In this document: positions 15,651 through 60,809 of the stretch, in pieces
Layout of the letters: each line of letters starts with the position of its first letter
How positions within the stretch are numbered: the stretch's first letter is position 1
DNA from: Sphingobacterium sp.
GTDB taxonomy: Bacteria; Bacteroidota; Bacteroidia; Sphingobacteriales; Sphingobacteriaceae
DNA length: 64,000 nt
Reading direction: 5' to 3'
Assembly (NCBI GenBank): GCA_029239355.1
Contig: JAQZAZ010000018.1
Coordinates: 1-64,000, forward strand
The notes under the pieces: model-generated
What the model saw: only the letters and a program-made list of their open reading frames with translations
Told to the model about the DNA's origin: nothing
Database searches by the model: none
Translations under genes and position numbers: made by a program

Positions 15651-16021
15651 TTTATCAGACTTTTTTCGAAGCCAATTGTTACGTTCTCGGCTGTACTAAC
15701 CCTATAATTGAGTAATATGCATTGCAATCAGGGAAACGATTAGGGAGACAGTATATTGGCATAACCAGTCCAAGTTCTGTCACTTTCAAGCCAGTCGATG
15801 AGTATACTAATGGAACCGAAGTTAAAAATTATCGAAAAGGCATATGTATACTTTCGGAGCCTGTAGTCGAACGGTAGAAATCGAGGGTAGATACCATGTT
15901 AATTAAAGTAGCTTACGGAATACAGCTTTAAAACGATCACAGTATTTTAACTGAAGCGATTAAAAGTATTTAGTCTGAGAAATAGGAGGTGAAGGGGGTA
16001 AAATATCTATTTAGATAAAAC

Positions 16022-16085
16022 AAAAAAGGTTTTCAAACGGGGAGAATGAAAACCTTTAATAACCAATTATAAACCTAAATTATGA
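16022..16085 (-). ncRNA. Candidate small RNA, copy 1 (about 60 nt) ending in an intrinsic terminator
   Basis: Minus strand 5'-CATAATTTAGGTTTATAATTGGTTATTAAAGGTTTTCATTCTCCCCGTTTGAAAACCTTTTTT. The 11-bp stem AAAGGTTTTCA/TGAAAACCTTT has an 11-nt loop TTCTCCCCGTT and a T tract. Nearly identical to 28245-28310. Confidence 0.65.
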
Positions 16086-16090
16086 TAGTA

Positions 16091-16121
16091 CAAAGATAGT
16101 GTGTTTTATACACACTAACAA
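16091..16121 (-). promoter_or_regulatory. Bacteroidota-type promoter for sRNA copy 1
   Basis: Minus strand TTG (16121-16119) - 20 nt - TATCTTTG (16098-16091); matches the TTG / TAnnTTTG consensus. Confidence 0.7.
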
Positions 16122-16352
16122 GTTTTTTTTAAAATATTTTGAATTAATCAGATACTTCTTGCGATTAGCATGGAATAAGCTTTGTTATTATGGTTTGATA
16201 TGCCGATATTAATTAACATTTGTTTTCTAAGCATTTTTACTAAAGGCATGCTATAAAAGGTGAATATTAGGTCAGTGTTGATTAATTCATAAGAAGATTG
16301 GACTTTGTATTCCAGATAGATTTGTGATAAAGAAATATTAAAATATTAAGCT

Positions 16353-27161: not shown

Positions 27162-28046
27162 ATGAAAACGCTCCAATTTAATGTGCCAACAATGCAAGGC
27201 CAAAGCCTAACTGTACAAGAAGATATTTTAGAAACTTTTTATCCGCACCTTCACAGACATCAAGAAGCCCAACTTATGTGGATAGTAAAGGGTAGGGGAA
27301 TATTAATTGTCGAAGATACTTTACATCCTTTTAAGGAAAATGATATTTTCTTTTTGGGGGCGAATCAGCCGCATGTATTTAAGTCAGCCTCTGAAGATGG
27401 CTTTTCAAATGAGTCTCGGTCTATCTCAATTTTTTTTGATCCGAATGGTAAACTCAAGTTACTGTTTTCCTTAGAGGAGTTTGAATCATTAAATCAGTTC
27501 ATTTACAATAATTCATATGGTTTTAAAATTCCCGACGACTATCTTAAACAAATTTCAGAAAGAATTTTGCAATTAAAGTCCTCAGATCAGATGGATAAAT
27601 TGATGCATTTTTTCTACCTATTAAGGTCTTTGGCAAATATATCAAGGGAGACCGAACCACTTTGTGCAGAGCGAGGTGAGATGTCATGTGATACAATACA
27701 CAGCTCAAACCGTATCAATTTAATTTGTAATTATATCAAAGAAAATTATAAACATGACATTAGTCTTGAGGATGTTGCTAGCTATGCAAACCTCACGCCG
27801 CAGGCATTTTGCCGGTATTTTAAAAAGCATTGCGGTGTTACCTTTGTCGCATATTTAAATCGAATACGCGTTAAGGAGGTTTGTAATCAGCTTAACGAGG
27901 ATCATTTGGATAGCGTTTCCTTTATTGCATACAATTGTGGTTTTAACAGTATCACTAATTTTAATCGAGTTTTTAAGCAGATTGTTGGCTGTAACCCGAA
28001 AGAGTATGTACAACAGTACAAGCAAACCTTATATTCAGTGATATAA
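27162..28046 (+). CDS. AraC-family regulator with N-terminal cupin
   Basis: HLHRHQEAQLMWIVKGRGILIVEDTLHPFKENDIFFLGANQPHVF; SLEDVASYANLTPQAFCRYFKKHCGVTFVAYLNRIRVKEVC...FNSITNFNRVFKQIVGCNPKEY. Confidence 0.94.
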   Translation: MKTLQFNVPTMQGQSLTVQEDILETFYPHLHRHQEAQLMWIVKGRGILIVEDTLHPFKENDIFFLGANQPHVFKSASEDGFSNESRSISIFFDPNGKLKLLFSLEEFESLNQFIYNNSYGFKIPDDYLKQISERILQLKSSDQMDKLMHFFYLLRSLANISRETEPLCAERGEMSCDTIHSSNRINLICNYIKENYKHDISLEDVASYANLTPQAFCRYFKKHCGVTFVAYLNRIRVKEVCNQLNEDHLDSVSFIAYNCGFNSITNFNRVFKQIVGCNPKEYVQQYKQTLYSVI

Positions 28047-28244
28047 AATAATAACATGTAATTTTGCCGAAAGTCAAGTAGTCAATTATTTTTGATGTTA
28101 ACAGATATAGTGAAGGTTAAGAAAAATAAAATTCTGCTTCATGCAGGTGGACGACTTCTGCTTCCTTCTTTCTTCACCTTAAAAGGATACACTTTTCATA
28201 AGCTTAATTTAAAATATTGGCTTGCTAATGGAACTCAGTAGTTA

Positions 28245-28310
28245 TAAAAAAAGGTTTTCAAACGGGGAGAATGAAAACCTTAAATAACCAATTATAAACC
28301 TAAATTATGA
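28245..28310 (-). ncRNA. Candidate small RNA, copy 2, ending in an intrinsic terminator
   Basis: Minus strand 5'-ATCATAATTTAGGTTTATAATTGGTTATTTAAGGTTTTCATTCTCCCCGTTTGAAAACCTTTTTTTATAAC; 10-bp hairpin with the same 11-nt loop; nearly identical to copy 1. Confidence 0.65.
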
Positions 28311-28315
28311 TTCTA

Positions 28316-28346
28316 CAAAGATAGTGTCTTTGTTACACTTTGTCAA
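28316..28346 (-). promoter_or_regulatory. Bacteroidota-type promoter for sRNA copy 2
   Basis: Minus strand TTG (28346-28344) - 20 nt - TATCTTTG (28323-28316). Same spacing as copy 1 but a largely different spacer sequence. Confidence 0.7.
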
Positions 28347-28366: not shown

Positions 28367-29605
28367 TTAAATCTTTTTAAAGAGAATACTTGAATTGTGC
28401 CCGCCAAAACCGAAGGCATTGCTCATTGCTGTTTGCACCGTTTTTTCCAAAGGTTGGTTGACAACAATATTTATTCCTTCAGGAATTGCAGGATCGATAT
28501 TTTCAATGTTTATTGTCGCTGGAATTACACTATTGTTTATGGACTTTATCGCAATAATTGCTTCAATTGCTCCGGCAGCACCGAGCAGATGGCCGGTCAT
28601 TGACTTGGTCGAACTGACCCAAAGGTTGCTGGATTTGCCAAATGCCAGTTGCATTGCTTTCAGTTCGGCAATATCACCAACAGGAGTAGAAGTGGCATGA
28701 AGATTTAAGTAATCCAATTGATCACTGTTTATTTGGGCTTCTTCCAGAGCAAGCGACATTGCCTTGGCCGCACCTATGCCTTCTGGGTGAGGCGAAGTCA
28801 TGTGATAGGCATCAGCAGTCATGGATGCGCCGACAAGCTCGGCATAGATTTTTGCGCCTCTCTTCTTGGCATGCTCGTATTCTTCCAATATCAGAGCTCC
28901 GGCACCTTCCCCCATAACAAATCCATCCCGATCCCGATCGAATGGTCTGCTCGCAGTTTTGGGATCATCATGCCTACTCGACATTGCTTTCATCGCAGAG
29001 AAACCTCCTACTGAAGCAGGGGTAATAGGCGCTTCTGAGCCGCCGCTGATAAAAACTTTTGCCTTTCCTAATCGAATGTAATTGAATGCATCCATGAACG
29101 CTGTATTGGATGTCGCACAGGCAGAAACAGTTGTATAATTGATTCCCTGCATGCCGAATTTCATTGATATCATTCCCGAAGCCATATTAACAATAAGCCT
29201 TGGGACGAAAAAGGGGCTGAATCGAGGAATATAATTGCCCGTTACATAGTTTTCAACTTCATTTTCGAATGTTTCCATTCCGCCCTGTCCAACACCCCAG
29301 ATAACGCCAATGTCAAATGGATCCATAGTATTTGGATCCAAACCAGAATCTTCTAGCGCTTGCGATGCACTGTACAGGGCGTATTGAGTAAATAAATCAC
29401 TTCTTTTGATCTCATTTCTATCGAGGTATTTTTCCGGTTGAAAGTTTTTGATTTCGCTCGCGATCTGTGTCCGAAACAAAGATGCGTCAAAGCGACTGAT
29501 GATAGCTGTGCGATTTTCGCCCCGTAAAATATTATCCCAGAATATATCAATGTTCTCTCCTAGCGGGTTGATTGTCCCCATGCCAGTAATTACAACTCTT
29601 TTCAT
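28367..29605 (-). CDS. fabF: beta-ketoacyl-ACP synthase II (KAS II)
   Basis: KRVVITGMGTINPLGEN; SACATSNTAFMDA; NLHATSTPVGD; STKSMTGHLLGAAGAIEAI; NAFGFGGHNSSILFK. Confidence 0.95.
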   Translation of the reverse strand: MKRVVITGMGTINPLGENIDIFWDNILRGENRTAIISRFDASLFRTQIASEIKNFQPEKYLDRNEIKRSDLFTQYALYSASQALEDSGLDPNTMDPFDIGVIWGVGQGGMETFENEVENYVTGNYIPRFSPFFVPRLIVNMASGMISMKFGMQGINYTTVSACATSNTAFMDAFNYIRLGKAKVFISGGSEAPITPASVGGFSAMKAMSSRHDDPKTASRPFDRDRDGFVMGEGAGALILEEYEHAKKRGAKIYAELVGASMTADAYHMTSPHPEGIGAAKAMSLALEEAQINSDQLDYLNLHATSTPVGDIAELKAMQLAFGKSSNLWVSSTKSMTGHLLGAAGAIEAIIAIKSINNSVIPATINIENIDPAIPEGINIVVNQPLEKTVQTAMSNAFGFGGHNSSILFKKI

Positions 29606-46259: not shown

Positions 46260-49200
46260 TTAAAATTGCATGTTAAGTCCAAAAAGGAAATTGCGCGTGG
46301 TTGGATAAGCCGAAAGCTCGATACCTGAAGTTAGGTTTGGACTACCGTCACCCGCCAATTCTGGAGAGAAACCGCTATAGTTGGTAAACATAAATGGATT
46401 CTGAGCCGTTACATATAGTCGCAATTTTGATTTTGAGCTATACAGTTTATCAAAAGTATAGCCAACGGTGATGTTGTTGATACGGAAGTAGCTGCCTGAT
46501 TCTAAGAAATAACTTGACGCCCAAATCGCCCGTTCAGCACCGGGATGCACATTGGTTGAGCCTGGCCCCGTCCAACGGTTTTCAAAGGTCGACAGGGCAA
46601 TATTTTCTCCACCATCGGTACGTGTACTTTTCATCCCGTTATAAATTTTATTTCCTCCGACACCATATCCTGAGATATTGAAATCAATTGCTTTGTAATT
46701 GATACCCAGATTAATGCCGTATGTTGAACTTGGTATAAAGGAACCGAAGAATTTCTTATCTCTGGTATCAATTACACCATCATCATTTTGGTCCTTATAT
46801 TTTAAGTAACCGGGTTTAGCTGGTCCAAAAGAGGGGTTATTGGCGATATCATTTGCATCCTGAAAAACACCGATAGATTCAAACATCCACCAACCGTAAA
46901 TTGGCTGTCCGACGCGCAGCTGTTTTGTAATTTCACCATTGTTCAAACTTCCACCGGTAGCACCATCATAAGTATGGACAACATCTGTTACTTTGTTGCT
47001 GTTATAGGAATAGTTGACACCCACGGAATAGCTAAAATCTGGCGATATACTTTTGTTCCAATTTAATGCAACTTCAACTCCTTGATTTAATACCTTGGCG
47101 CCATGTGCATAATAGTTTTTTTCATCTGGTGAAGAATAGATTGGGGTGACGTCCAGAATGGTATTGGTATTCTTTTTATGATAATAATCGACTGATCCAG
47201 ATAGATTATTAAATACAGTGAAGTCGATTCCGGCACCTGTTTCCTTGGTAACCTCCCAGCTTAAGTCAACTGGAGGTGTTCCTTTTGCGCTACCATATAC
47301 CATATTCTGTTCGGGACCAAAAACATAATTGTAATTGGAACTTTCTGGACTTGAGAAAATATTATACGCATTTAAAGGAATATTCTGGTTACCTAAATGT
47401 CCATAGTTTGCTCTGACTTTTAAGAAGTTGATCCAACTGATGTCTTTCATGAATTGTTCGTTGGATGCAGTCCAGCCAAAACCAAAGGATGGAAATGTTC
47501 CCCAATATTTCCCTGTATTACGAAACACGCTTGAGGCATCTCTTCGAACTGTAGCTGTTAAATAATAACGACTATCATAGTTGTATTGTACCCGTCCAAA
47601 ATAAGACGCTAAGGCTCTAGGTGTATAGTATGTCTGCAATGAAACGATGTCATAACCATCTGATTTTCCTTTTGCTAAATTGATATTCCAATACTGTTCT
47701 TGTTCTGGAACATTATAGCCCATTTGGCTGTTCATACTGTTGATATCGTATTTTTCACGAGACATCCCCACCACAGCTTCGATATTGTGCTTATCAAATG
47801 TCTTGTTAAATGTTAGGAAGTTTTCCCATGACCATCTGAACTGTTCAAGATTTTCATATTTCAAACTGTTATCAGCATAACTGGTATTCCCAGGCCTACT
47901 ACCTTTTTCTTTATAGAATTCACTTTCAGCTCGTAAGGGATTTGCATTGAGCCAACGATCTTTAATGTCAGTGAAGATTCGTTGCTTTGAGTAGAATTTG
48001 TTTGCCCCAATGCGTGAATTTATTTTTAAATAGTCTGTAATTTTAAATTCACCTTCGAAGCTCCCCTGAAGTCGTAACGTATTTGTTCGTTCATTTTGTC
48101 TGAGAACCTCATAAACGGGGTTGCCAATTGTATTTAAATTTCCTATGGTTTGACCAGTTGTTCCATCTATACCAACTATTCCGGTATTTTGGTTCACGCG
48201 TCCAATCCCATAACGACCATTGGAATACATTAAAGGAACTAATGGCGACTGTTTATATGCTGTTGTAAAAGCGCTATTTGGCTTTGGTGTAGCATTTGTC
48301 AAGGTTAAATTAAGATTTTGCGAAAACTTCAGCCTATTGTTTAAAAATTTATAAACATTGTTGTTACGGATCGTATTCCGGACATATTTGGAGCCATCAA
48401 GGATACCGTTTTCGGTAAAGTTATTTGCCGAAACAAAATAATCGACTTTTTCTGTACCACCAGCGATGTTTACAGCATTGTTAAACACCGTTCCGGTTTT
48501 GATCAATTCGTCATACCAATCGGTGTTATTAGGCTGATTTTCTTTTATTTCCCAATTGGTTATTCCAAGAGATTGCAAATTTTCATTAAAGTACGTTCTG
48601 AATTGATCCCCATTGGCCATTTTTACACGATTGAGAATTTTCTTCATTCCAGCATAACTTTCGTAATTAATGCTAACAGTACCCGCTTTACCCTTTTTTG
48701 TGGTTACGATAATGACACCATTTGCTGCTCTCAGACCATAGATAGATGCTGAGGATGCATCTTTCAACACATCCATCGATTCAATATCCGAAGGGTTGAT
48801 GTTATTAATGTCGTCCTGTGCGATACCATCCACAACATATAAGGGATTTCGACCAGACAGAGCTGTACCCAGCCCCCTAATAATAACATTTGGTGAAGAT
48901 CCCGGAGCCTCGTTCGCAATAATATTCAAACCGGCTGCTTTACCCTGAATGGATTGCATTGCTGACATCGCAGGCTGTTTGGCAATATCCGAAGATTTCA
49001 ATGAGCTAATTGATCCGGTGAGATCGGCTTTCTTTTGTGTACCATAACCAATAACCACAACCTCTTCCAAGGCCTTATTTTCGTTCTCTAGAAAAACATT
49101 AAGTTGCGTTTGGTTTCCGATGGATACCGTTTGCGTGCGGTAGCCTAGAAAATTAAAAACTAAGGAGTCGGTAGGAGCGGCGTTGATTTGAAATTTACCC

Positions 49201-49364
49201 GTTGCGTCGGTTTTGGTAGATGCTGCTTTTCCCTTGATACTAATGGTGACCCCTGGCATGGATATCATGCTGGAACCATCTTTGACCACTCCTTGGATAG
49301 AAGTTTGTCCATAGGCAACCGAGACGACCATGGATGTCAAAAATAATGCGGATAGATTCCTCAT
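46260..49364 (-). CDS. SusC-family TonB-dependent transporter
   Basis: QGVVKDGSSMISMPGVTISIKG; EEVVVIGYGTQKKADLTGSIS; NPLYVVDGI; DASSASIYGLRAANGVIIVTTKKG. Confidence 0.96.
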   Translation of the reverse strand: MRNLSALFLTSMVVSVAYGQTSIQGVVKDGSSMISMPGVTISIKGKAASTKTDATGKFQINAAPTDSLVFNFLGYRTQTVSIGNQTQLNVFLENENKALEEVVVIGYGTQKKADLTGSISSLKSSDIAKQPAMSAMQSIQGKAAGLNIIANEAPGSSPNVIIRGLGTALSGRNPLYVVDGIAQDDINNINPSDIESMDVLKDASSASIYGLRAANGVIIVTTKKGKAGTVSINYESYAGMKKILNRVKMANGDQFRTYFNENLQSLGITNWEIKENQPNNTDWYDELIKTGTVFNNAVNIAGGTEKVDYFVSANNFTENGILDGSKYVRNTIRNNNVYKFLNNRLKFSQNLNLTLTNATPKPNSAFTTAYKQSPLVPLMYSNGRYGIGRVNQNTGIVGIDGTTGQTIGNLNTIGNPVYEVLRQNERTNTLRLQGSFEGEFKITDYLKINSRIGANKFYSKQRIFTDIKDRWLNANPLRAESEFYKEKGSRPGNTSYADNSLKYENLEQFRWSWENFLTFNKTFDKHNIEAVVGMSREKYDINSMNSQMGYNVPEQEQYWNINLAKGKSDGYDIVSLQTYYTPRALASYFGRVQYNYDSRYYLTATVRRDASSVFRNTGKYWGTFPSFGFGWTASNEQFMKDISWINFLKVRANYGHLGNQNIPLNAYNIFSSPESSNYNYVFGPEQNMVYGSAKGTPPVDLSWEVTKETGAGIDFTVFNNLSGSVDYYHKKNTNTILDVTPIYSSPDEKNYYAHGAKVLNQGVEVALNWNKSISPDFSYSVGVNYSYNSNKVTDVVHTYDGATGGSLNNGEITKQLRVGQPIYGWWMFESIGVFQDANDIANNPSFGPAKPGYLKYKDQNDDGVIDTRDKKFFGSFIPSSTYGINLGINYKAIDFNISGYGVGGNKIYNGMKSTRTDGGENIALSTFENRWTGPGSTNVHPGAERAIWASSYFLESGSYFRINNITVGYTFDKLYSSKSKLRLYVTAQNPFMFTNYSGFSPELAGDGSPNLTSGIELSAYPTTRNFLFGLNMQF

Positions 49365-49551
49365 ATCGTAAAATTTTGGTGTTTGTTTAAAAAATCAATT
49401 GGTTATTCCCTCAGCAAATATGTTGATGTAGTACAAGTTTGCCAAAATTTAACGTTTGCACATCACTACTACACTATATTTGTACTTTCTCAATGTAATT
49501 TTTTTTTAGTTTTAATATTCTGTTATTGAGTTGTTTAATGTTTGTTTTTGT

Positions 49552-49595
49552 GTAAAAAAAAGAGCGCTTTAGTGTAAAAATAACACTAAAGCGCT
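49552..49595 (-). terminator. Intrinsic terminator downstream of the propeller/LuxR regulator
   Basis: AGCGCTTTAGTGT-N7-ACACTAAAGCGCT, 13-bp perfect stem, T8 tail on the minus strand. Confidence 0.8.
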
Positions 49596-49629
49596 TGTGT
49601 GGTAATGATGTAGTCTCTGTAGCGAAATT

Positions 49630-52527
49630 TTAACGTTCCAACAGAAATTCGGACAGGTTTTTGTCTGTTGGTATGCCCAGTTTTTTGCGCAAACGGTAGC
49701 GTCTGATCTCTACACCTCGCGTACTGATGTTGAGTAGTGAAGCAATCTCTTTACTGGACATATTGAGCCGTAAATAAGCACATAGTTTTAAATCATTGGG
49801 AACAAGATCCGGAAACTCCTGCTTTAATTTTTTAAAGAAATTCTCATGTGATTCATTAAAACTTTTCTCAAAAATATGCCAGTCACGATCGTCGTTATGC
49901 GCGTCTTCAATTAGCTTATTTATTTTTTTCAATTCGTCGGAACTGAGCTTGTTTCCTTCTGCATCTTTGAGCTGTTTGAGTTCATCATGTAGATTATTCA
50001 ACATTTCATTTTTATAGACAATATTGAGCGCAGCATTGGCCAGCTCTTTATTCTTTAGGCTGAGCTGAGCTTCCAACTGTTGGTTCTTTAATTTAATCCA
50101 TTCCTTCTCCTGTTGTTCGGCATCTCTTTCTAATGCAATTTTCTTTTCTTCCAACCATTTTCGCTTTGCTTGAAACTGTCTCTTTCTTTCTCGTTGAAGA
50201 TTGAAATTATAAATAAGATAGATCAATCCCGAAACCATCAAGATATAGCAGATTTTTGCCCACCATGACAGGTACCAAGGATATTTAATTGTAAAAGATA
50301 TCGCCCGTATTTCAGAAGTCAGGCCGGTATTGGTTCTAGCTCTTATCTTAATTTCGAAATGCCCATAAGGTAGGTTTGTGAAGTCTTGATAAGCTGTTTC
50401 ACTCCAGTCCGACCATTTATCCGAATAACCCTCTAAGTAATACTGATATTGTAATGGTGAGGAGGAGTAATAGGGGCTTGAGAAACTCACCCTGAGGTTA
50501 TTTTCGGATGATGCCAACCTAAGATCTCCATTTGGTATGATTGTTTCTCCGGTTGTGAGATTGGTCAATTGCGCAATCTGAGGCGGAGGCAATATGTATT
50601 TATGATCTTGACCTGAATTCCGATAGATGGCAAAACCATCATCTAATCCGATGAGATAGTAATGATTTTCGATCGGTAGAATGTTTTCATAATTACTCAT
50701 CATGCGATCCTGCAAGGGGCTGAGCAGATTGGAATCTATTTTAAGCTTTCCTTTACTATCAAAGTCTACTTTAGCGATTTTTGTTTTCTGAATAAACCAA
50801 TAACTGTTGGTAGTGATTGGGATGACCTTATTTGCATTTTTATAACTTCCTAATGCATTATTTAATTCGCTTGCATAACTAAAGCGTTTGACGATATTAT
50901 CAAACTGCATGAATCCACTATCAGTAGCAAAAACAAGATTGTTTTCTAATGTGTAAATGCCCGTAAATCTTCTTTTGGCAGCAAGACTATCTAGCTTTGA
51001 GGTAAATTGAATTTGTGCTTGTTGAAAGCTTGGGTCAAGACCAATCAGCTGCACTTGTCCCCAATCTCCAATCCAGAATGAATGATTGTCTTTTTGGGCG
51101 AGGAATCGAACCGGTTCCTTAATCGAGGAAAATTGCTGTGCAAATCGAAGCTGCATATCATCAAATACGAACTTTGATAATCCCGTATAATTCCCCTGAA
51201 GAATATTCTTTGTGCCGAATATAGGTTTAAATATCCAACCGCCCGTAATTTTGGAAATCTTTTCCAGTTTCCCGCTGACCAATTTAAAGGTTCCTTCATT
51301 GTGACCGCAGATCAGTTCCGCACCAAATATGGCCAATGTCCAGACCTGACCATTTGAATTGGGAACCTGAACAAAATCTAAGGAATTATAATTGTTTAAT
51401 CCCTTCCATTCGCTAACGAATAAGCCCTTATTTGTCCCTAAGTAAATTTTTCCCTGATAGATAATTGACGTATATACCGTGCCGATTTTACCTACAAAAT
51501 CGGTATAAAAAGATAAAGAAGAGTTGATTTCAATGCGATCAATCCCATTGTCCAGCCCTACCCAGATATTCTGTTGTTTATCTTTTGTTATACTGAGTAC
51601 AGTATTGTTCTGTAGTCCATTATTTTTATTGATATGTTGGACTACTTCTCCATTTTTATTAATAATAATTACGCCATTTTGAATGGTTCCAAACGCATAC
51701 TGCCCTCCAAATAAATAGATACCGTTATTGATTTGGGATTGACTTAGTATTGGATTAGCGGGAATTGACCATGTTCGGATGTTTCCGCTGGAATCCATAA
51801 GATAGAGCCCGTGATGGGCCGTTGCGATAAGTGAATTATTTTTATCAAATGGTAATATTGCTAGAACATTTTTGTCTTTAAGGATATCTTTGCCTGGTAC
51901 AGGTACTAATTTATTCGCTTTGAATTCGTGTAGGCCACTTGGGAGCTGCTCAAAAAACAGTTGATCGTTAAGTTGATGTGGAAATAAAAAAGGCTCACCT
52001 TTAGCCGTGAGTGGCCTGATTGTGTTGTTCTCCCAGATATAGGACTTGGAGAAAGTGTGAAAAAATACACGATGATCTTCAACGATAATTTTCCATATTT
52101 CTTCGTTTGGAAAATAAGTCTTGTCTTTGACCAGCCTGGAAAGACTATGATAGCTCATCTCACCAAAAGCCTTTGAAGTCCAATAGCCAAATTCTCCTCG
52201 TCCACCTGTATATACCTTTCCGGTTTTATCAACAGCAACACTACGGACTGTTGAGTGGTTAGGAAGAGGGTATATGCGCCAGTATTGTCCATCAAATCGT
52301 AGCAATCCTTCCGTATTGGCGCTATAGATTCGCCCTTCCTGATCAATAGCCAATGACCAATTCTGGTTTCCCGCCTTATATTGGCTTTTTTTATATTGCT
52401 TTACAAAAGGTGTACCCGTGGGTATGATTGTCTGGCAATAACCAGTAATCATATTAAGAATAAAAAAAGCGCAAAACCAAAAGATATAGGCAACGCTATA
52501 TTTTTTTGATACCATCGAATCCCTCAC
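49630..52527 (-). CDS. Membrane-anchored propeller/Y_Y_Y sensor with C-terminal LuxR-type HTH
   Basis: Repeated propeller segments (NGLQNNTVLSITKDKQQNIWVGLDNGID); Y_Y_Y-like region; TM WAKICYILMVSGLIYLIYNF; coiled coil; LKLCAYLRLNMSSKEIASLLNISTRGVEIRRYRLRKKLGI. No HisKA or receiver domain. Confidence 0.9.
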   Translation of the reverse strand: MRDSMVSKKYSVAYIFWFCAFFILNMITGYCQTIIPTGTPFVKQYKKSQYKAGNQNWSLAIDQEGRIYSANTEGLLRFDGQYWRIYPLPNHSTVRSVAVDKTGKVYTGGRGEFGYWTSKAFGEMSYHSLSRLVKDKTYFPNEEIWKIIVEDHRVFFHTFSKSYIWENNTIRPLTAKGEPFLFPHQLNDQLFFEQLPSGLHEFKANKLVPVPGKDILKDKNVLAILPFDKNNSLIATAHHGLYLMDSSGNIRTWSIPANPILSQSQINNGIYLFGGQYAFGTIQNGVIIINKNGEVVQHINKNNGLQNNTVLSITKDKQQNIWVGLDNGIDRIEINSSLSFYTDFVGKIGTVYTSIIYQGKIYLGTNKGLFVSEWKGLNNYNSLDFVQVPNSNGQVWTLAIFGAELICGHNEGTFKLVSGKLEKISKITGGWIFKPIFGTKNILQGNYTGLSKFVFDDMQLRFAQQFSSIKEPVRFLAQKDNHSFWIGDWGQVQLIGLDPSFQQAQIQFTSKLDSLAAKRRFTGIYTLENNLVFATDSGFMQFDNIVKRFSYASELNNALGSYKNANKVIPITTNSYWFIQKTKIAKVDFDSKGKLKIDSNLLSPLQDRMMSNYENILPIENHYYLIGLDDGFAIYRNSGQDHKYILPPPQIAQLTNLTTGETIIPNGDLRLASSENNLRVSFSSPYYSSSPLQYQYYLEGYSDKWSDWSETAYQDFTNLPYGHFEIKIRARTNTGLTSEIRAISFTIKYPWYLSWWAKICYILMVSGLIYLIYNFNLQRERKRQFQAKRKWLEEKKIALERDAEQQEKEWIKLKNQQLEAQLSLKNKELANAALNIVYKNEMLNNLHDELKQLKDAEGNKLSSDELKKINKLIEDAHNDDRDWHIFEKSFNESHENFFKKLKQEFPDLVPNDLKLCAYLRLNMSSKEIASLLNISTRGVEIRRYRLRKKLGIPTDKNLSEFLLER

Positions 52528-52834
52528 TTTAAATTGATTTGAAAAGCAATATATAGATTTTATTGCAAATGTGAGAATACGAGCGGCAAATGAATGTTAT
52601 TATAGACATTCCAAGCTGTTTTTTAGAAAGAATAGTCGAAATCGTTTTCGCATTTTTAATAGCCTAAACGAGTGAAGCCTACTTGTTTTTTAATTACCTT
52701 GGAGACAAATAACCAAACAAAACATAACTATGACTTAATCAAATCTTTAAAAATTAGATTTGGATTCAAACGAATTGCTCAAGGAGTGAATCCATCAATT
52801 TAAAACTAAACCAAAAAATCTAAACAGTAAAATT

Positions 52835-55800
52835 ATGAAATCAAAGCTTTTCAGAAGAGGGCCCTGTGCGCTTATTCCCTATGCATCCATGGCAATATTT
52901 TTGTCACCTGGATTATTATTGGGGATAACTAAAGGCGAAAACAGAGGTATCTATCATCAAATTAATCAGGAAGAATCAGAAATCAGAGGTAAGGTTGTCA
53001 ACAAAGACAATTCTCCCTTGCAGGGAGTTTCTATAAGCGTGAAGGGAGTCCCCGGCCGGAGTACACAGACTAACGATAAAGGTGAGTTTATGTTAAAGGT
53101 ACCTGCGAATGCAACATTAACTTTTTCTTCCATTGGTTACGCTGGGCAAGAAATTAAACTTGGGGCGAATCAAAAGACGGTACAGCTCACCTTACAATCG
53201 AATGAGTCAGTTATGGATGAGGTCGTTGTCGTGGGCTATGGAACACAACGAAAAAGTGATTTAACAGGTTCCGTGTCTTCCATTAATGCGAATCAAATTA
53301 ATGCATTTCCATTGGCAGGTACTGCACAAGCATTACAGGGGAGAGCCCCTGGGGTCTCAGTGACCAGCACAAATGGAGAACCCGGTAAAGCTCCTCGTGT
53401 TCGGATTAGGGGCGGTAGTTCCATCAATGCGAGTAGTGATCCATTGTATGTGGTTGATGGCTTTCCCGGTAGTTCGGCCCCTGCTCCCGAAGATGTCGAA
53501 TCTATCGAAGTGTTAAAAGACGCTTCTGCAACAGCTATTTATGGCTCCAGAGGTGCCAATGGAGTGATCATGATAACAACGAAAAAAGGACGTTCGGGCA
53601 AACCTGTTATTGAATTAAATAATTCCTTTGCTTCACAGAAAGTAGGGAAGCGCCTTTCGCTATTAAATGCGTCGGAATTTGCCTCTTATATTAACGATAC
53701 CTATAAGAATGCTGGGAACAATAATCTACCATTTAAAGATCCTGGATCCCTGGGTAAAGGAACTGATTGGCAGGACCTGATTTTTAGAAATGGAAATCAG
53801 TTGAATAATCAAGTCTCCGTGTCGGGAGGCAGTGACAATATTAGGTATTATACTTCCGTCAGTCATTTTGGACAAAAGGGAACTGTGATCAACTCGGATT
53901 TTAGAAGACTTTCCGGGACTTCAAATTTAGAGATGAAGGTCTCTGATCGCATCAAAATCGGAACAAGACTGCTGTTTAATCGCAATAAATTAAACGGTGT
54001 AAGAACACAGGAAGGAAGTAGCGGAACGACAGGTGCGGGAGTGATCTCCGCAGCCTTGCGCTTTGAACCTACACAGGGAGTTTACGATGATGAAGGAAAA
54101 TACACCTTGAAGCAGTTCGGTGACCCGCATGATAATCCGGTAGCTGCTGCTATGGAAAGGAAAAACGAGGTGATTACAGATCTGTTTCAGGGGAATGGAT
54201 TTGTGGAGTTGGGAATTCTCAAAAATCTGATCTTTCGTAGCACCTTTGGTGTACAGGTCAGTAATCAACGCACAGGTAATTATGTCTCAAAAGAACTTGT
54301 CGAAGGAAGAAATTTCGGTGGAGTTGGATCGATCGCGGCACATAAAAATACCAATTTGATTAATGAAAACTTCCTGACATATACGCAAACCATTCGCGAA
54401 GACCATAATCTGAATGCGATGGCTGGTTATTCCTATCAGAGTTCTAGAAATGAAACCTGGCAGGCCAATAATCGAAATTTCATTTCAGACAGCTTTAGCT
54501 ATTGGAATCTAGGTGCTGGTTCCAATTATCAAAATGCATCTTCGAATCTTGAAGATTGGGTAATGTCTTCATTTTATGGGCGTTTAAACTACAATTACAA
54601 AAATCGTTACTTTATTACTGCTACAGGTAGGTATGATGGTTCTTCGAAGTTTGGTGACAATAATAAATGGGCTTTCTTTCCTTCTGGGGCGCTTGCCTGG
54701 AACCTGAGTCAGGAGCCGTTTATGAAATCGATCGATTGGCTGAGCAATTTAAAATTGCGAACAAGTTATGGCGAAACCGGAAACTCGGAAATTGGTTCCT
54801 ACCAATCCTTGGCTAGATTTTCACCTACTTTGACAACAATGGGCGGAAGTCCAGTTAACGCAGTGCGTCCCACGAATGTCGCCAATCCGAATCTGACTTG
54901 GGAAACGACCAAACAAACAGACGCTGGATTGGATCTCGGTATTCTCAAGAGCCGAATAAACCTATCAGTAGACTATTATTACAAAAAAACGATCAATCTC
55001 TTGTATCAGGTGCCACTGCCGCTCTATTCAGGTTTTACTACGGCACTCCAAAATGTGGGAAGTGTACAAAACAAAGGTTGGGAATTTGGTTTGCAGACAA
55101 CCAATCTCAACGGTGCCTTCGGATGGAAAACAGATTTTAACATCAGTTTCAATCGCAACAAGATTTTGCAGCTTCCTGGAGGCGAGATTCGATATAATAC
55201 GATCCCTGGTCACATGCTTTCAACGGATTCGCAGCTGCTACGGGAAGGAGAGGTACTCGGCGCATTTTTTGGATGGGTGACAGATGGAATTTATCAGCAG
55301 GGCGATGATTTTAGCGCACAACCAAATAAGAAACCTGGAGATATTCGCTATAAGGATTTATTTGGGCGCGATAAAAATAATCAATTGATCGCCGGTGCAA
55401 ACGGTGTTGTCAATGCTGACGACCGTACGATTATAGGTAATCCAAATCCTGATTTCACCTTCGGTTTTAACAATGATTTTAAGTATAAGAATTTTGATCT
55501 GAATATTTTTATGCAAGGAAGTTACGGCAATGATATGTTGAATATCACACGAATGGAACTGGACTGGATGGCCGGAAAAGGAAATGCTACAAAGGATGCA
55601 CTGCGACGCTGGACACCCGAAAATACCAATACTGACGTACCAAGGGCAAGCTCAACCAACAATCCCGAAGTTTCCTCGCGCTGGGTAGAAGATGGCTCTT
55701 ACCTCCGCTTAAAGAATCTTGCTCTTGGCTATAATTTTTCAGAAAAGTCACTCGAAAAAATTCATTTAAAATATTTAAGAATATATGTCAGTGCACAAAA

Positions 55801-55936
55801 TATATGGACATGGACTAACTACACGGGTTTTGATCCTGAAGTAAGCTATCAGGATTCTAACCGAAATGTCGGATTAGATTACATGGGCTACCCCAATATT
55901 AAATCCTATACCCTTGGCTTAAATATAAGGTTTTGA
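52835..55936 (+). CDS. SusC-family TonB-dependent transporter
   Basis: IRGKVVNKDNSPLQGVSISVKG; DEVVVVGYGTQRKSDLTGSVS; DPLYVVDGFPG; DASATAIYGSRGANGVIMITTKKG. Confidence 0.96.
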   Translation: MKSKLFRRGPCALIPYASMAIFLSPGLLLGITKGENRGIYHQINQEESEIRGKVVNKDNSPLQGVSISVKGVPGRSTQTNDKGEFMLKVPANATLTFSSIGYAGQEIKLGANQKTVQLTLQSNESVMDEVVVVGYGTQRKSDLTGSVSSINANQINAFPLAGTAQALQGRAPGVSVTSTNGEPGKAPRVRIRGGSSINASSDPLYVVDGFPGSSAPAPEDVESIEVLKDASATAIYGSRGANGVIMITTKKGRSGKPVIELNNSFASQKVGKRLSLLNASEFASYINDTYKNAGNNNLPFKDPGSLGKGTDWQDLIFRNGNQLNNQVSVSGGSDNIRYYTSVSHFGQKGTVINSDFRRLSGTSNLEMKVSDRIKIGTRLLFNRNKLNGVRTQEGSSGTTGAGVISAALRFEPTQGVYDDEGKYTLKQFGDPHDNPVAAAMERKNEVITDLFQGNGFVELGILKNLIFRSTFGVQVSNQRTGNYVSKELVEGRNFGGVGSIAAHKNTNLINENFLTYTQTIREDHNLNAMAGYSYQSSRNETWQANNRNFISDSFSYWNLGAGSNYQNASSNLEDWVMSSFYGRLNYNYKNRYFITATGRYDGSSKFGDNNKWAFFPSGALAWNLSQEPFMKSIDWLSNLKLRTSYGETGNSEIGSYQSLARFSPTLTTMGGSPVNAVRPTNVANPNLTWETTKQTDAGLDLGILKSRINLSVDYYYKKTINLLYQVPLPLYSGFTTALQNVGSVQNKGWEFGLQTTNLNGAFGWKTDFNISFNRNKILQLPGGEIRYNTIPGHMLSTDSQLLREGEVLGAFFGWVTDGIYQQGDDFSAQPNKKPGDIRYKDLFGRDKNNQLIAGANGVVNADDRTIIGNPNPDFTFGFNNDFKYKNFDLNIFMQGSYGNDMLNITRMELDWMAGKGNATKDALRRWTPENTNTDVPRASSTNNPEVSSRWVEDGSYLRLKNLALGYNFSEKSLEKIHLKYLRIYVSAQNIWTWTNYTGFDPEVSYQDSNRNVGLDYMGYPNIKSYTLGLNIRF

Positions 55937-56046
55937 CACTACTAAGAACCATCTGAGTACCATTCATGGTAGTTAAATGAAAAATAAATAATCTGGGTGC
56001 AGCAATTTTCAGCTAGATGCTCGAAATAGGCACCTGTTAATAATTC

Positions 56047-57431
56047 ATGCTAATGAAAAAGATAACTATATATCGTATTATACTTACGACGCTGTGTTTT
56101 ACCAGCCTGTTTTCCTGTACCAAACTGAACGAGGAACCGGTAAGTATTTTGGATCCTAAGCAATATTTTAAGACGGAAGCGGATGCAGAAGCTTCAGTGA
56201 TGGGGATTTACGGGCTTCTAGCCAATGCAGATTTTTATGGACGGCGATTGACCATGGTACTGCAATTGCTGGGTGATGACATTGATATTGCGGATATTGG
56301 TACGCAATCTAGTCGGATTCAGTTGAACAGTTTTACACATGATGCGAGCAATCAGGATTTACTCGCGGTATGGAAAACCGCTTATCTGGGTATTGGCGCT
56401 GCAAATGCCGCAATAGATGGTATTCCAGCCGTCACAATGAATGAGGCTAAAAAATCCGCCCTCATTGCCGAAGCGAGGTTACTTCGGGCGCTATATTACT
56501 ATCACTTGGTTCAACTATTTGGGGATATCCCCTATATTGGTGAATTCGTCAGTGATCCAAGCAAGGTAATTGCTATCAGCAAAACTCCAGCAGCAAAGGT
56601 TTATGAGAATATCATCGCAGATTGTGAATATGCAATAGTGAATTTGCCAGATACCTATGCCAATAACAACAAAGCAAGACCATCCAAAGGCGCCGCCCAG
56701 ACTTTGTTGGCTTCGGTCTATATGGTCTTGAAAAAATGGGATGATGCCGCTAAGATGGCTGAGGCTGTAATCAATGATGCAAACAAATACCAGTATGTGT
56801 GCGGGATGCCGATATGTTGGGATGGAGCGTTATTGTACCATCAAATGGCGTATATGGTAGCTTTTCTGATCAAGATTACAGAAAGAAAATTAGCTTTCTG
56901 ACCGAAACACCAATAAAAGGAGTGATGACACCCTATCAGAAATGGAAATGGCCTCGTATACATACCGCAAAATGGTGTTTGCATCCGGGCACTAATGCTG
57001 GAGCGGATGGCTCTGACTCCGATATCAAACATGTTATCTTTCGCTATGCTGAAGTTCTTTTAATGGCAGCTGAAGCATTAAATGAAAGTAAAGGCGGACC
57101 AACGGAAAAGGCATATAGCTATATAAATGCTGTTCGGGCTAGAGCAAGGTATACGCCACAGGGAGTACAGAATTATCCTGCAGACTTAGCAACGGGTATG
57201 TCGCAGACAGACTTTAGAAAGGCAGTGCAGGAAGAACGTCGTATTGAATTAGCTTTTGAATGGAAAAGGTGGTACGATATCAAACGTTGGGGACAAGTAG
57301 TAGATGCATTTACTAGGCAGGGAGCCTATGAAAGCCAGCCAAAAGTAAAAGATTTTCATGCACTGATGCCTATTCCTCAGGATGAAATCGCACGTAATAC
57401 AAATTTACTGCCCCAAAATCCAGGGTATTAG
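56047..57431 (+). pseudogene. SusD/RagB gene disrupted by a frame change and apparent internal deletion near 56800
   Basis: ORF 56047-56901 is SusD-like up to AEAVINDANKYQYV (about 56798) then reads out of frame. ORF 56799-57431 continues with RDADMLGWSVIVPSNGVYGSFSDQDYRKKISF...EERRIELAFEWKRWYDIKRW...MPIPQDEIARNTNLLPQNPGY. Confidence 0.8.
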
Positions 57432-57466
57432 TACAGCAATATCGGATTTCTTGGTGTTAAATGAAA

Positions 57467-57505
57467 GAAAATATCAACTTGTAAATAGGTTGATATTTTC
57501 TTTTT
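57467..57505 (+). terminator. Intrinsic terminator after the disrupted susD
   Basis: GAAAATATCAAC-N10-GTTGATATTTTC followed by TTTTT. Confidence 0.78.
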
Positions 57506-57719
57506 AAGGATAGATAATACCTTTTTTATATCATCGTCAAGAATGAAACAGCGATTGAAAATTTAATTTTCTTCAAAATCCTTTTAATTCTACTGGAAAT
57601 CAAGAAAAAAGACATTTTTTCCACCTATTCGAACGAAAAATCTCCCTCTAGAGACCGACTATTTTTGATATTTGGTTTCATTTATTGAGTTCAAAATAAC
57701 CACATAAACCAAGAGAACT

Positions 57720-60700
57720 ATGATAACACCGACAACCAAAACGGTAGGGAAGGGTTTGCTTTTATTTTTGCTGATGAGTATGGCTGCACCTAACGTGTTT
57801 GCACAGTCTCAGCTAAAAATATCAGGAAAAGTAACCTCACCTGCAGGCGAACCACTTGCAGGGGTGACAGTACAGATTAAAGGCGCAAAGAATGGAACCG
57901 TTACAGATGTATCCGGCAATTATCAGATTCTTGCCAAGGATATTGATGTATTGATTTTTTCACTGGTAGGTAGAGAAAAAACAGAAATCGCTATTGTTAA
58001 AAAAGATCATATCAATCTAGTACTACAAGAGTCAAGTAGCCTAATGGACGAGGTCGTCGTTGTAGGTTACGGAACACAGAAAAAGAGCAATTTGACTGGA
58101 GCCGTTGCTGCAGTAGACGGAAAAGTACTGAATAAACGAATTGCGACTAATCCTACACAATTACTTCAAGGGCGTATGCCGGGACTTCGTGTGACACAAG
58201 GATCCGGAGAGGCAGGTAACGAAAATGTGAATTTACAAGTTAGGGGATTAGGTTCTTATGGTGCTTCTTCCGCACCATTGGTCATTGTGGATGGGATTCC
58301 CGGTAGTTTGGAGAACCTGAATCCACAGGCGATTGAAAATATTACAGTATTAAAAGACGCCGCCTCAGCAGCAATCTATGGAGCAAGAGCTGCAAACGGT
58401 GTGATCCTCGTGACAACCAAACAGGGGAAATCCGGAAAAGCACAACTGAGCTACGATTACAATGTTGGAATAACAAAGGCTTCAGCATTACCTGATTTGG
58501 TCTATAATTCGGTAGATTATATGACCCTATATAATCAAGCTGCTAAAAATTCTGGTATCACCAATGCGAATTCGCTGTTCAGCCAGGAAATGATTGATGC
58601 ATATAAAAATGCGACAGACAAAACGCTTTATCCTGACTTTAATTGGTTGGATGCCGTGTTTAAAACTGTACCCGTGCAAACGCATAATTTAAGTTTAAGT
58701 GGTGGTGCTAATGGAACCAATTATAACGTCATCCTTGGTTATGTCGATCAGCCCGATATTATGATTGGTACTTCCTTTAAAAAGTATAATCTCCAATTGA
58801 ACCTGAACTCGAAAATCAACGATAGAATAAGTTTTGGTTCGAGTATTACATTGAATTATCGTGATCGAAAATATCCGAGAAACGGAGCTGAAGATCAGTT
58901 CCTGTCCACAATAAGCCAGTCCCCGTTATATGGTCCTGTGCTTCCAGATGGAAGTGGCCGATATACTTCCCGAGCTTACCCATTTCAGTCACCCAATAAA
59001 AACCCAGTTGCGGTTGCAGACAACGCATTGACTAGACTGAACAATTACTTTATGCAGGGCAATATCTTTGTGAATATAAAGCTATTGGAGGGTTTAGAAT
59101 GGAAAACCAGCGGTGGTTTAACCTATAGTTTTAACAAAAACTATACAAACAAACCAGTGATCAATCAGTATATGTGGCAGGCAAAACCAGATGCACTGCC
59201 TGCACGCCAATTGGATGTCGGAGGACAAGGATTGGAGGTGACTGATGATAACAATGTATATCCTGTGGGGTATACCCAACTGACTTACGACAAGTCATTT
59301 GGAGACCATAATTTGAAAGTATTAGCCGGCACACAAGCAGAATATAACAAGACGCAAAAATTATTTGGCAGCAGATTGCAATTCCCTAATAAAGATCTGC
59401 TTGAATTGGATGGTGGTGGTGCCGGACAACAGTCAAATAGTGGCGTGACTGATGAATGGTCTTTAAGATCTTATTACGGTCGCTTAAATTATGATTATAA
59501 AGGCAAATACCTGTTGGAGGGAAATGCCCGTTATGATGCTTCTTCACGTTTTCCCGAAAATAGAAAATGGGCCTTTTTCCCATCCGTATCAGCAGGATGG
59601 AAGATCTCAGATGAAGCTTTTTTTGGTGAACGGCTTAAAGAGACAGTCAATGAAGTCAAACTTAGGGCTTCCATAGGAACCCTCGGTAATCAGAATATCG
59701 GAAACTATCCCTATCAAACTGTTTACAGCTCTGCTTTTGCCTATCCATTTGAAGAAACCCTACAACAGGGAGCACGTCAGGTTGCTATGGCAAATGAACG
59801 TATAAAGTGGGAAAGTACCAAAGTATTGGATTTTGGTATTGATCTCGGATTCTGGAATAATAAGTTGACAGCCTCTTTTGATTGGTACAATAAAGTGACC
59901 TCCGATATTCTGTCATCATCGACAGCATTCCCTTCCTATATCGGTCTTACTGCCCCGACTGTAAATTATGGAACGTTGCGTAATAGGGGGATCGAACTCG
60001 GACTTCAATACCGTGAAAAAATTGGGGAAGTGTCCTTAACATTAAATGGTAATATCCAAGCCAATAGCAATAAGGTTATAAAATATGGAGCTGAACGTAT
60101 TTCAGGCAATACCATTATTCGGGAGGGGTTACCATATGGCAGTTTCTACTTACTGGAAAGTGTAGGAATATTTCGCTCGAAGGAAGAGATCGCAAGTTCG
60201 CCAAAACAACAAGTCCCAGCGCAACCTGGCTATTTGAAATTTGCGGATGTCGATGGTGATAACAAGGTGGACAATAATGACCGCGTTGTAGTACCTGGGG
60301 CATTCCCAGATTTTGATTATTCATTTAATGCCAGCGCAGTATGGAAAAACTTTGATTTTACGGCATTTTTCTTTGGATCTCAAGGCCAAAAAATATTTGT
60401 TAGCGAATGGGGAATCGTTCCTTTTAGACAAGGCGGGACTTTCACGCGAGAATGGATGGACGCTTGGACACCGGAAAATCCAAATGCATCGTTACCGATT
60501 GTAGGATTAGACAATTCACCAGCAGCAAATAATGTACGGACGGCCTCTACATTTTTCTTGAAAGATGGATCTTTCTTACGATTGAAAAATATTCAAATAG
60601 GTTACAGTATTCCACAGAATACATTATCAAAGGCAGGTATTTCGGGATTACGTGTTTATTTTGCCGCAGATAATCTGGTTACTTTTTCGAAGTTCCCAGG

Positions 60701-60809
60701 TTTAGATCCAGAACGCGGTGTATCGTCCAGCGGTGGAGCAACCTCAGGACGTTATGTAACCCATCCTCAAAATAAAGTTTTTGCATTTGGTGCAAATATC
60801 ACCTTCTAA
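57720..60809 (+). CDS. SusC-family TonB-dependent transporter
   Basis: ISGKVTSPAGEPLAGVTVQIKG; DEVVVVGYGTQKKSNLTGAVA; APLVIVDGIPG; DAASAAIYGARAANGVILVTTKQG. Confidence 0.96.
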   Translation: MITPTTKTVGKGLLLFLLMSMAAPNVFAQSQLKISGKVTSPAGEPLAGVTVQIKGAKNGTVTDVSGNYQILAKDIDVLIFSLVGREKTEIAIVKKDHINLVLQESSSLMDEVVVVGYGTQKKSNLTGAVAAVDGKVLNKRIATNPTQLLQGRMPGLRVTQGSGEAGNENVNLQVRGLGSYGASSAPLVIVDGIPGSLENLNPQAIENITVLKDAASAAIYGARAANGVILVTTKQGKSGKAQLSYDYNVGITKASALPDLVYNSVDYMTLYNQAAKNSGITNANSLFSQEMIDAYKNATDKTLYPDFNWLDAVFKTVPVQTHNLSLSGGANGTNYNVILGYVDQPDIMIGTSFKKYNLQLNLNSKINDRISFGSSITLNYRDRKYPRNGAEDQFLSTISQSPLYGPVLPDGSGRYTSRAYPFQSPNKNPVAVADNALTRLNNYFMQGNIFVNIKLLEGLEWKTSGGLTYSFNKNYTNKPVINQYMWQAKPDALPARQLDVGGQGLEVTDDNNVYPVGYTQLTYDKSFGDHNLKVLAGTQAEYNKTQKLFGSRLQFPNKDLLELDGGGAGQQSNSGVTDEWSLRSYYGRLNYDYKGKYLLEGNARYDASSRFPENRKWAFFPSVSAGWKISDEAFFGERLKETVNEVKLRASIGTLGNQNIGNYPYQTVYSSAFAYPFEETLQQGARQVAMANERIKWESTKVLDFGIDLGFWNNKLTASFDWYNKVTSDILSSSTAFPSYIGLTAPTVNYGTLRNRGIELGLQYREKIGEVSLTLNGNIQANSNKVIKYGAERISGNTIIREGLPYGSFYLLESVGIFRSKEEIASSPKQQVPAQPGYLKFADVDGDNKVDNNDRVVVPGAFPDFDYSFNASAVWKNFDFTAFFFGSQGQKIFVSEWGIVPFRQGGTFTREWMDAWTPENPNASLPIVGLDNSPAANNVRTASTFFLKDGSFLRLKNIQIGYSIPQNTLSKAGISGLRVYFAADNLVTFSKFPGLDPERGVSSSGGATSGRYVTHPQNKVFAFGANITF

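Follow-up and report, generated by a model that had tools for sequence, protein, structure and literature searches.

A multicopy small RNA family in Sphingobacterium with a near-invariant 5′ block predicted to pair with susC start regions

Paralogous small RNAs (sRNAs) of the OmrA/OmrB type repress the translation of outer-membrane proteins in enterobacteria through a conserved 5′ end. The family described here resembles them in its paralogy, its predicted outer-membrane targets and its conserved 5′ end, whereas OmrA and OmrB are two copies, depend on Hfq and are unrelated to it in sequence and phylum. FopS of Bacteroides thetaiotaomicron is a 14-member family of 65–70-nt sRNAs, which bind susC messages in the start region and repress their translation; they also associate with RbpB, an RRM protein (PMC11697453). 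Published in 2025 as a system of Bacteroidaceae linked to RbpB, FopS has σABfr promoters; one phage-borne relative was reported, and no strong sub-diversification was seen among the paralogues (PMC11697453). In the same species, GibS is a single-copy sRNA of 145 nt with a PM2 promoter, a 5′ unstructured seed that binds the start codons of carbohydrate-metabolism mRNAs, and a second seed, R2 (PMC7366714). Our literature search found no paper on such an sRNA family in Sphingobacterium. We consider it likely that the locus analyzed here belongs to a family of paralogous, trans-acting sRNAs that represses SusC translation as FopS does, a reading in which we infer transcription, in vivo pairing and the direction of the effect.

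The unit lies on the minus strand (28346–28245) of a 64-kb window, the whole stretch of Sphingobacterium sp. DNA that was analyzed, in the intergenic region where an araC regulator gene (27162–28046, plus strand) and a convergent, fabF-like beta-ketoacyl synthase gene (28367–29605, minus strand) face each other tail to tail. It comprises a promoter and a predicted RNA of ~70 nt, whose 5′ block is unpaired and which carries a terminator hairpin. The promoter reads TTG-N20-TATCTTTG, the Bacteroidota σABfr type, with the TTG −33 box at 28344–28346 and the −7 box (TAnnTTTG) at 28316–28323; relatives have the −7 box and an equal −33 box at N20. Within the 20-nt spacer is an operator-like dyad, AGTGTAACAAAGACACT (28323–28339), whose last base overlaps the −7 box. 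Downstream of the −7 box the minus strand continues as UAGAAUCAUAAUUUAGGUUUAUAAUUGGUUAUUUAAGGUUUUCAUUCUCCCCGUUUGAAAACCUUUUUUU. The predicted sRNA (28246–28315, with predicted ends) is supported by its fold and by covariance model R1 (see below), a full-length match at 88.8 bits. Its 26-nt single-stranded 5′ block, TCATAATTTAGGTTTATAATTGGTTA (28285–28310), is supported by the 21-copy alignment, an exact block search and the duplex test, and is near-invariant among copies as TCATAATTTAGGTTWATAATTGGTTA. It is followed by the terminator hairpin AAGGTTTTCATTCTCCCCGTTTGAAAACCTT (28251–28281; window search, covariation and fold), with a C-rich loop and then a T run. Two mismatch-free occurrences of the 31-nt hairpin were found in the window (0 expected from shuffles), and RNA folding left the 5′ half of the sRNA mostly unpaired. 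Direct inspection found no ATG on the sense strand of the sRNA, and an Rfam search at the gathering score gave no match for the unit.

The initial annotation had described the unit as a second copy. Copy 1 is indeed in the window (16021–16134, minus strand; sRNA at 16021–16091, dyad and −7 box at 16091–16113), situated between two same-strand genes, but copy 2 belongs to a set of 21 strong genomic copies, or about 27 with weaker ones. The boxes at N20, the near-identity of body and hairpin, and the location between the araC and fabF 3′ ends were as annotated. Copies 1 and 2 are alike over 113 bp only, at 90% identity, and nothing is alignable outside. Since the similarity ends at the borders of the unit, the two are not part of a longer duplication. 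Across the genome (5.99 Mb, 316 contigs), a nucleotide search found 16 similar places, and the 20-nt core, with up to two mismatches, gave 20 matches against 0 for the reversed control. Covariance model R1, built from the 21 aligned own-genome copies, recovered all 21 and, besides, weaker copies; among these is a second sub-type, ACTTTTCATAAAATAGGTTAATAATATGGCTAA, with CCCC-loop terminators, at C261:2929, C248:3450, C111:106704 and C289:182294 (L153–L156). Copies also cluster: three tandem units, two with σ54-like promoters, lie within 570 bp at C50:4957–5525 (L024), and contig C111 holds three copies within 3 kb.

All 41 Sphingobacterium genomes searched carried the sRNA family, with 5–43 copies each, and of 300 genomes sampled evenly from the phylum nine matched, mostly from the same taxonomic family. 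Among the matches listed, the exact block was present in named genomes of at least four genera (Sphingobacterium, Parapedobacter, Olivibacter and Mucilaginibacter) and in 'bacterium A37T11', and several own-genome units were near-identical to those of S. siyangense, S. prati and S. detergens. Two loci (L166 and L167), from other taxonomic families of the class, are single units with related blocks, TTTTTCATAATTTAAAGTTTGGTTGGTTA and TTTTTTCATAATTTAAGTTTTAGTTGGTTA, and terminators, which suggests that the phylum may hold more such families.

Eight genomes have an orthologous unit beside fabF; in these the RNA body was 100% identical, while the downstream flank was unalignable. Selection is therefore clear, and we are almost certain that these are sRNA genes under selection, as the initial annotation had argued against passive duplication; the unit-bounded similarity and the covarying stems described below agree with this. 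The annotation had further expected conserved functional parts beside a drifting spacer. The loop was indeed C-rich and the 5′ block near-invariant, but the spacer was not free. The two 20-nt spacers are as annotated and have diverged to 65% identity (13 of 20 positions, counted by hand), yet the shared letters include the whole dyad. The dyad of copy 2, GTGT-N7-ACAC, is nearly invariant among the eight orthologues, whose spacer reads ACAAAGTGTAATAAACACAC with few changes. Sub-type A copies (hairpin AAGGTTTTC...GAAAACCTT) carry TTG/TTTG-N~20-TAnnTTTG, and 41 of the 56 units contain GTGT-N-ACAC; once near-identical spacers were removed, it persisted in 10 of 28 σABfr units of all sub-types, where shuffles expect 0.006. 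Because the dyad is kept in other copies and in orthologues, the spacer is constrained. In the own genome, the entire dyad together with the −7 box matched perfectly at only three places, each of them an sRNA copy. The dyad alone was not enriched beyond the control, and we rejected it as a genome-wide regulon site. The dyad is probably the site of a putative repressor that sets when sub-type A is made.

Copy 2 and sub-type A have the σABfr promoter, whereas many other paralogues lack it or have σ54-like elements instead. GGCA-N6-8-TTG, a σ54-like −24/−12 element, was found in 34 of 127 units without a σABfr box (shuffle mean, 0.56), and in 25 of the 34 it stands 27–32 nt ahead of CATAA; in σABfr-type units TAnnTTTG ends a few bases ahead of CATAA. 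Judged by these positions, the RNA would start at one and the same point behind either of the two unrelated promoter types.

How far does this family correspond to FopS? Both are multicopy sRNAs of ~65–70 nt (here with predicted transcript ends), with an unstructured 5′ seed and a terminator, and both have a seed antisense to the susC start region (here in silico, p = 2e-9; see below) and, in copy 2 and sub-type A, a σABfr promoter. We nevertheless think it unlikely that the two families are homologous and that this one belongs under FopS itself. Length, layout, copy number and target class agree, and the FopS model RF04319 aligns over its full length (1–71) to the unit at 28243–28318 of the window, with the words UUUUCAUA and AUUUAAGGUUAA-like in common. 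However, the alignment scored 13.8 bits (E = 7) against a cutoff of 56, on which score we rejected the filing, and RF04319 had no match in the own genome or in the same-family genomes listed; above cutoff in the phylum sample were two genomes of one genus (G232 and G240), besides the control Bacteroides ihuae. The FopS 5′ end GTGTTTTTCATAGTATTAGATTTAAGGTTAACAAAGGTTGG, fetched from an RF04319 match, is similar to the unit's block in words, but local alignment of these short AU-rich 5′ blocks stayed within shuffles (p = 0.1–0.3), and the reciprocal model was weak. The seed itself differs, and the Sphingobacterium paralogues have a C-rich loop, which Bacteroides FopS lacks, and are plainly diversified in their promoters (σ54-like and others). 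The RRM_1 domain (PF00076) was absent from the own genome and from the nine own-genus genomes listed, with a positive control matched; 42 of 101 genomes of the family have it, none of those 42 in the own genus. On this evidence the family would work like FopS but is not filed as FopS. GibS shares the unstructured 5′ seed on start codons, but is 145 nt, single-copy and PM2-driven and has the second seed R2, whereas the unit is ~70 nt, multicopy and has σABfr boxes; the predicted targets differ too.

The reverse complement of the 5′ block, TAACCAATTATAAACCTAAATTATGA, resembles a leader with a start codon. We computed duplexes between the first 33 nt of copy 2 and regions around possible start codons, picked among the first three ATGs per frame, of the 56 SusC genes listed in the own genome and of a background of 177 other genes from the 64-kb window and from 14 stretches, each about 20 kb long. 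Duplex energy was lower at susC starts than at other starts (−13.9 vs −10.4 kcal/mol, p = 2e-9). The difference of −3.45 lay beyond all dinucleotide shuffles (−0.42 ± 0.50; minimum of 162, −2.41). Duplexes of −15 kcal/mol or stronger formed at 19 of the 56 susC starts, about a third, vs 7 of 177 in the background, and TAACCAAT was present in 12 of 56 susC start regions vs none of the 177 others (Fisher p = 1.4e-8). An ungapped search for the seed antisense at susC starts gave no clear match, whereas gapped duplexes and TAACCAAT did. The complementary strand of the seed showed no preference for susC starts, and the Bacteroides FopS seed gave no significant susC excess in the own genome (p = 0.09). 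The reversed seed gave a weak excess (p = 0.04), so part of the susC signal is composition; susC leaders could also share TAACCAAT for another reason. The seed of the second sub-type, ACTTTTCATAAAATAGGTTAATAATATGGCTAA, had no susC-start preference (p = 0.28), and its targets are therefore probably different.

A strict two-block pattern, TAACCAATT-N3-24-AATTATGA, matched 18 own-genome places, of which 13 are sRNA copies on the other strand; the remaining five comprise three susC starts, a susD-like start and a GtrA-like gene (the last two identified from translations). The best-scoring non-SusC background gene has, judged by eye, a hybrid two-component regulator layout of the PUL type. The list of targets is provisional, as only about a third of the susC genes duplex strongly and starts were picked among the first three ATGs. 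Taken as predictions from sequence, these data make it quite likely that susC messages are the main targets, and the functional core of the family, which has >20 members in one genome, is probably an antisense of susC start regions in a sequence clearly unlike FopS. Within the window, three SusC-family genes (46263–60806) accompany the two sRNA copies. The best duplex (−17.8 kcal/mol, over the start codon) marks the open frame at 57707–60806 (plus strand) as a predicted target, and the one at 52789–55933 (plus strand; −13.4 kcal/mol) is a possible weaker target.

In the 21-copy alignment the 5′ block TCATAA(A)TTTAGGTTWATAATTGGTTA was almost invariant, while the hairpin stem varied freely, with compensatory changes in eight of nine pairs; over stems of unrelated sequence the loop stayed C-rich (CCCC/CCC). 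A hairpin that serves termination by folding needs no such loop, and the sRNA might be real yet do its main work through the C-rich loop (CUCCCC) or protein binding, with susC complementarity secondary. We regard this as quite improbable, since conservation is much higher in the 5′ block than in the loop, no shuffle reached the enrichment seen at susC starts, and Bacteroides FopS has no C-rich loop. The chance that the units are a mobile or selfish repeat (MITE/REP-like) merely spreading through the genome is very small: there are many dispersed copies, on phage contigs too, and tandems at C50 and C111, but flanks are unrelated, compensatory pairs accompany the stem differences, eight genomes keep the copy next to fabF in place with an identical body, and different promoter types stand at a fixed distance. 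Just as implausible is a mere bidirectional terminator between convergent araC and fabF, which would suit a site between two gene 3′ ends and a hairpin with T runs, but has no need for an invariant 26-nt 5′ block, −33/−7 boxes or a spacer dyad, and copy 1 lies between two same-strand genes.

Under the preferred reading, an sRNA family acting on susC messages, RNA polymerase with the primary Bacteroidota sigma factor would start a few bases before TCATAA, and transcription would end at the hairpin and U run to give an RNA of ~70 nt. Its first ~30 nt, being unpaired, would base-pair with numerous susC messages across the leader and start codon (typically ...AAUAACCAAUU...AAUUAUGA...), UAACCAAU being the susC-leader stretch in the proposed pairing. 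This would block ribosome entry and yield fewer outer-membrane glycan importers, many of them probably going down at once; that the effect would be repression is deduced from the position over the start codon and the FopS precedent. A repressor at the promoter-spacer dyad would probably time sub-type A production and, because other paralogues have the same 5′ block behind a σ54-like promoter, several signals would feed one target set. If so, a common environmental genus without detectable RRM_1 would hold a second, very divergent family with FopS-like target logic, and antisense control of SusC translation would be a wider Bacteroidota strategy for which an RbpB partner is not needed. The promoter diversity offers a concrete case for why bacteria keep many near-identical sRNAs, as each copy may answer a different signal, and the own-genome susC list supplies directly testable targets. 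We suggest, tentatively and short of an even chance, that in Sphingobacterium and its relatives an invariant anti-susC module stands behind unrelated promoters (σABfr plus dyad, σ54-like, tRNA or tRNA-like, and phage genes), so that many signals would lead to a single switch acting on the translation of glycan importers; no RRM chaperone would take part, and the module may have arisen independently of FopS.

In Mucilaginibacter-type loci (L161, L171, L174, L199, L236, L254, L281 and others) the block lies ~8 nt past a tRNA-like 3′ half, GGTTCGACCCCTTCTCCTACAG. ARAGORN called a tRNA in only one of 12 Mucilaginibacter upstream sequences (L176, where a real tRNA-Cys is just upstream of the sRNA block); we therefore rejected a general tRNA reading and keep the label 'tRNA-like'. 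The arrangement hints that the Mucilaginibacter-type sRNA may be released by tRNA processing. A plasmid search found no carriage of the sRNA block, and named phages gave weak partial matches only. In IMG/VR, 30 viral contigs (L379–L408) have the exact block with its terminator. On four viral contigs (L387, L391, L398 and L399) the block is directly behind a phage tRNA gene.
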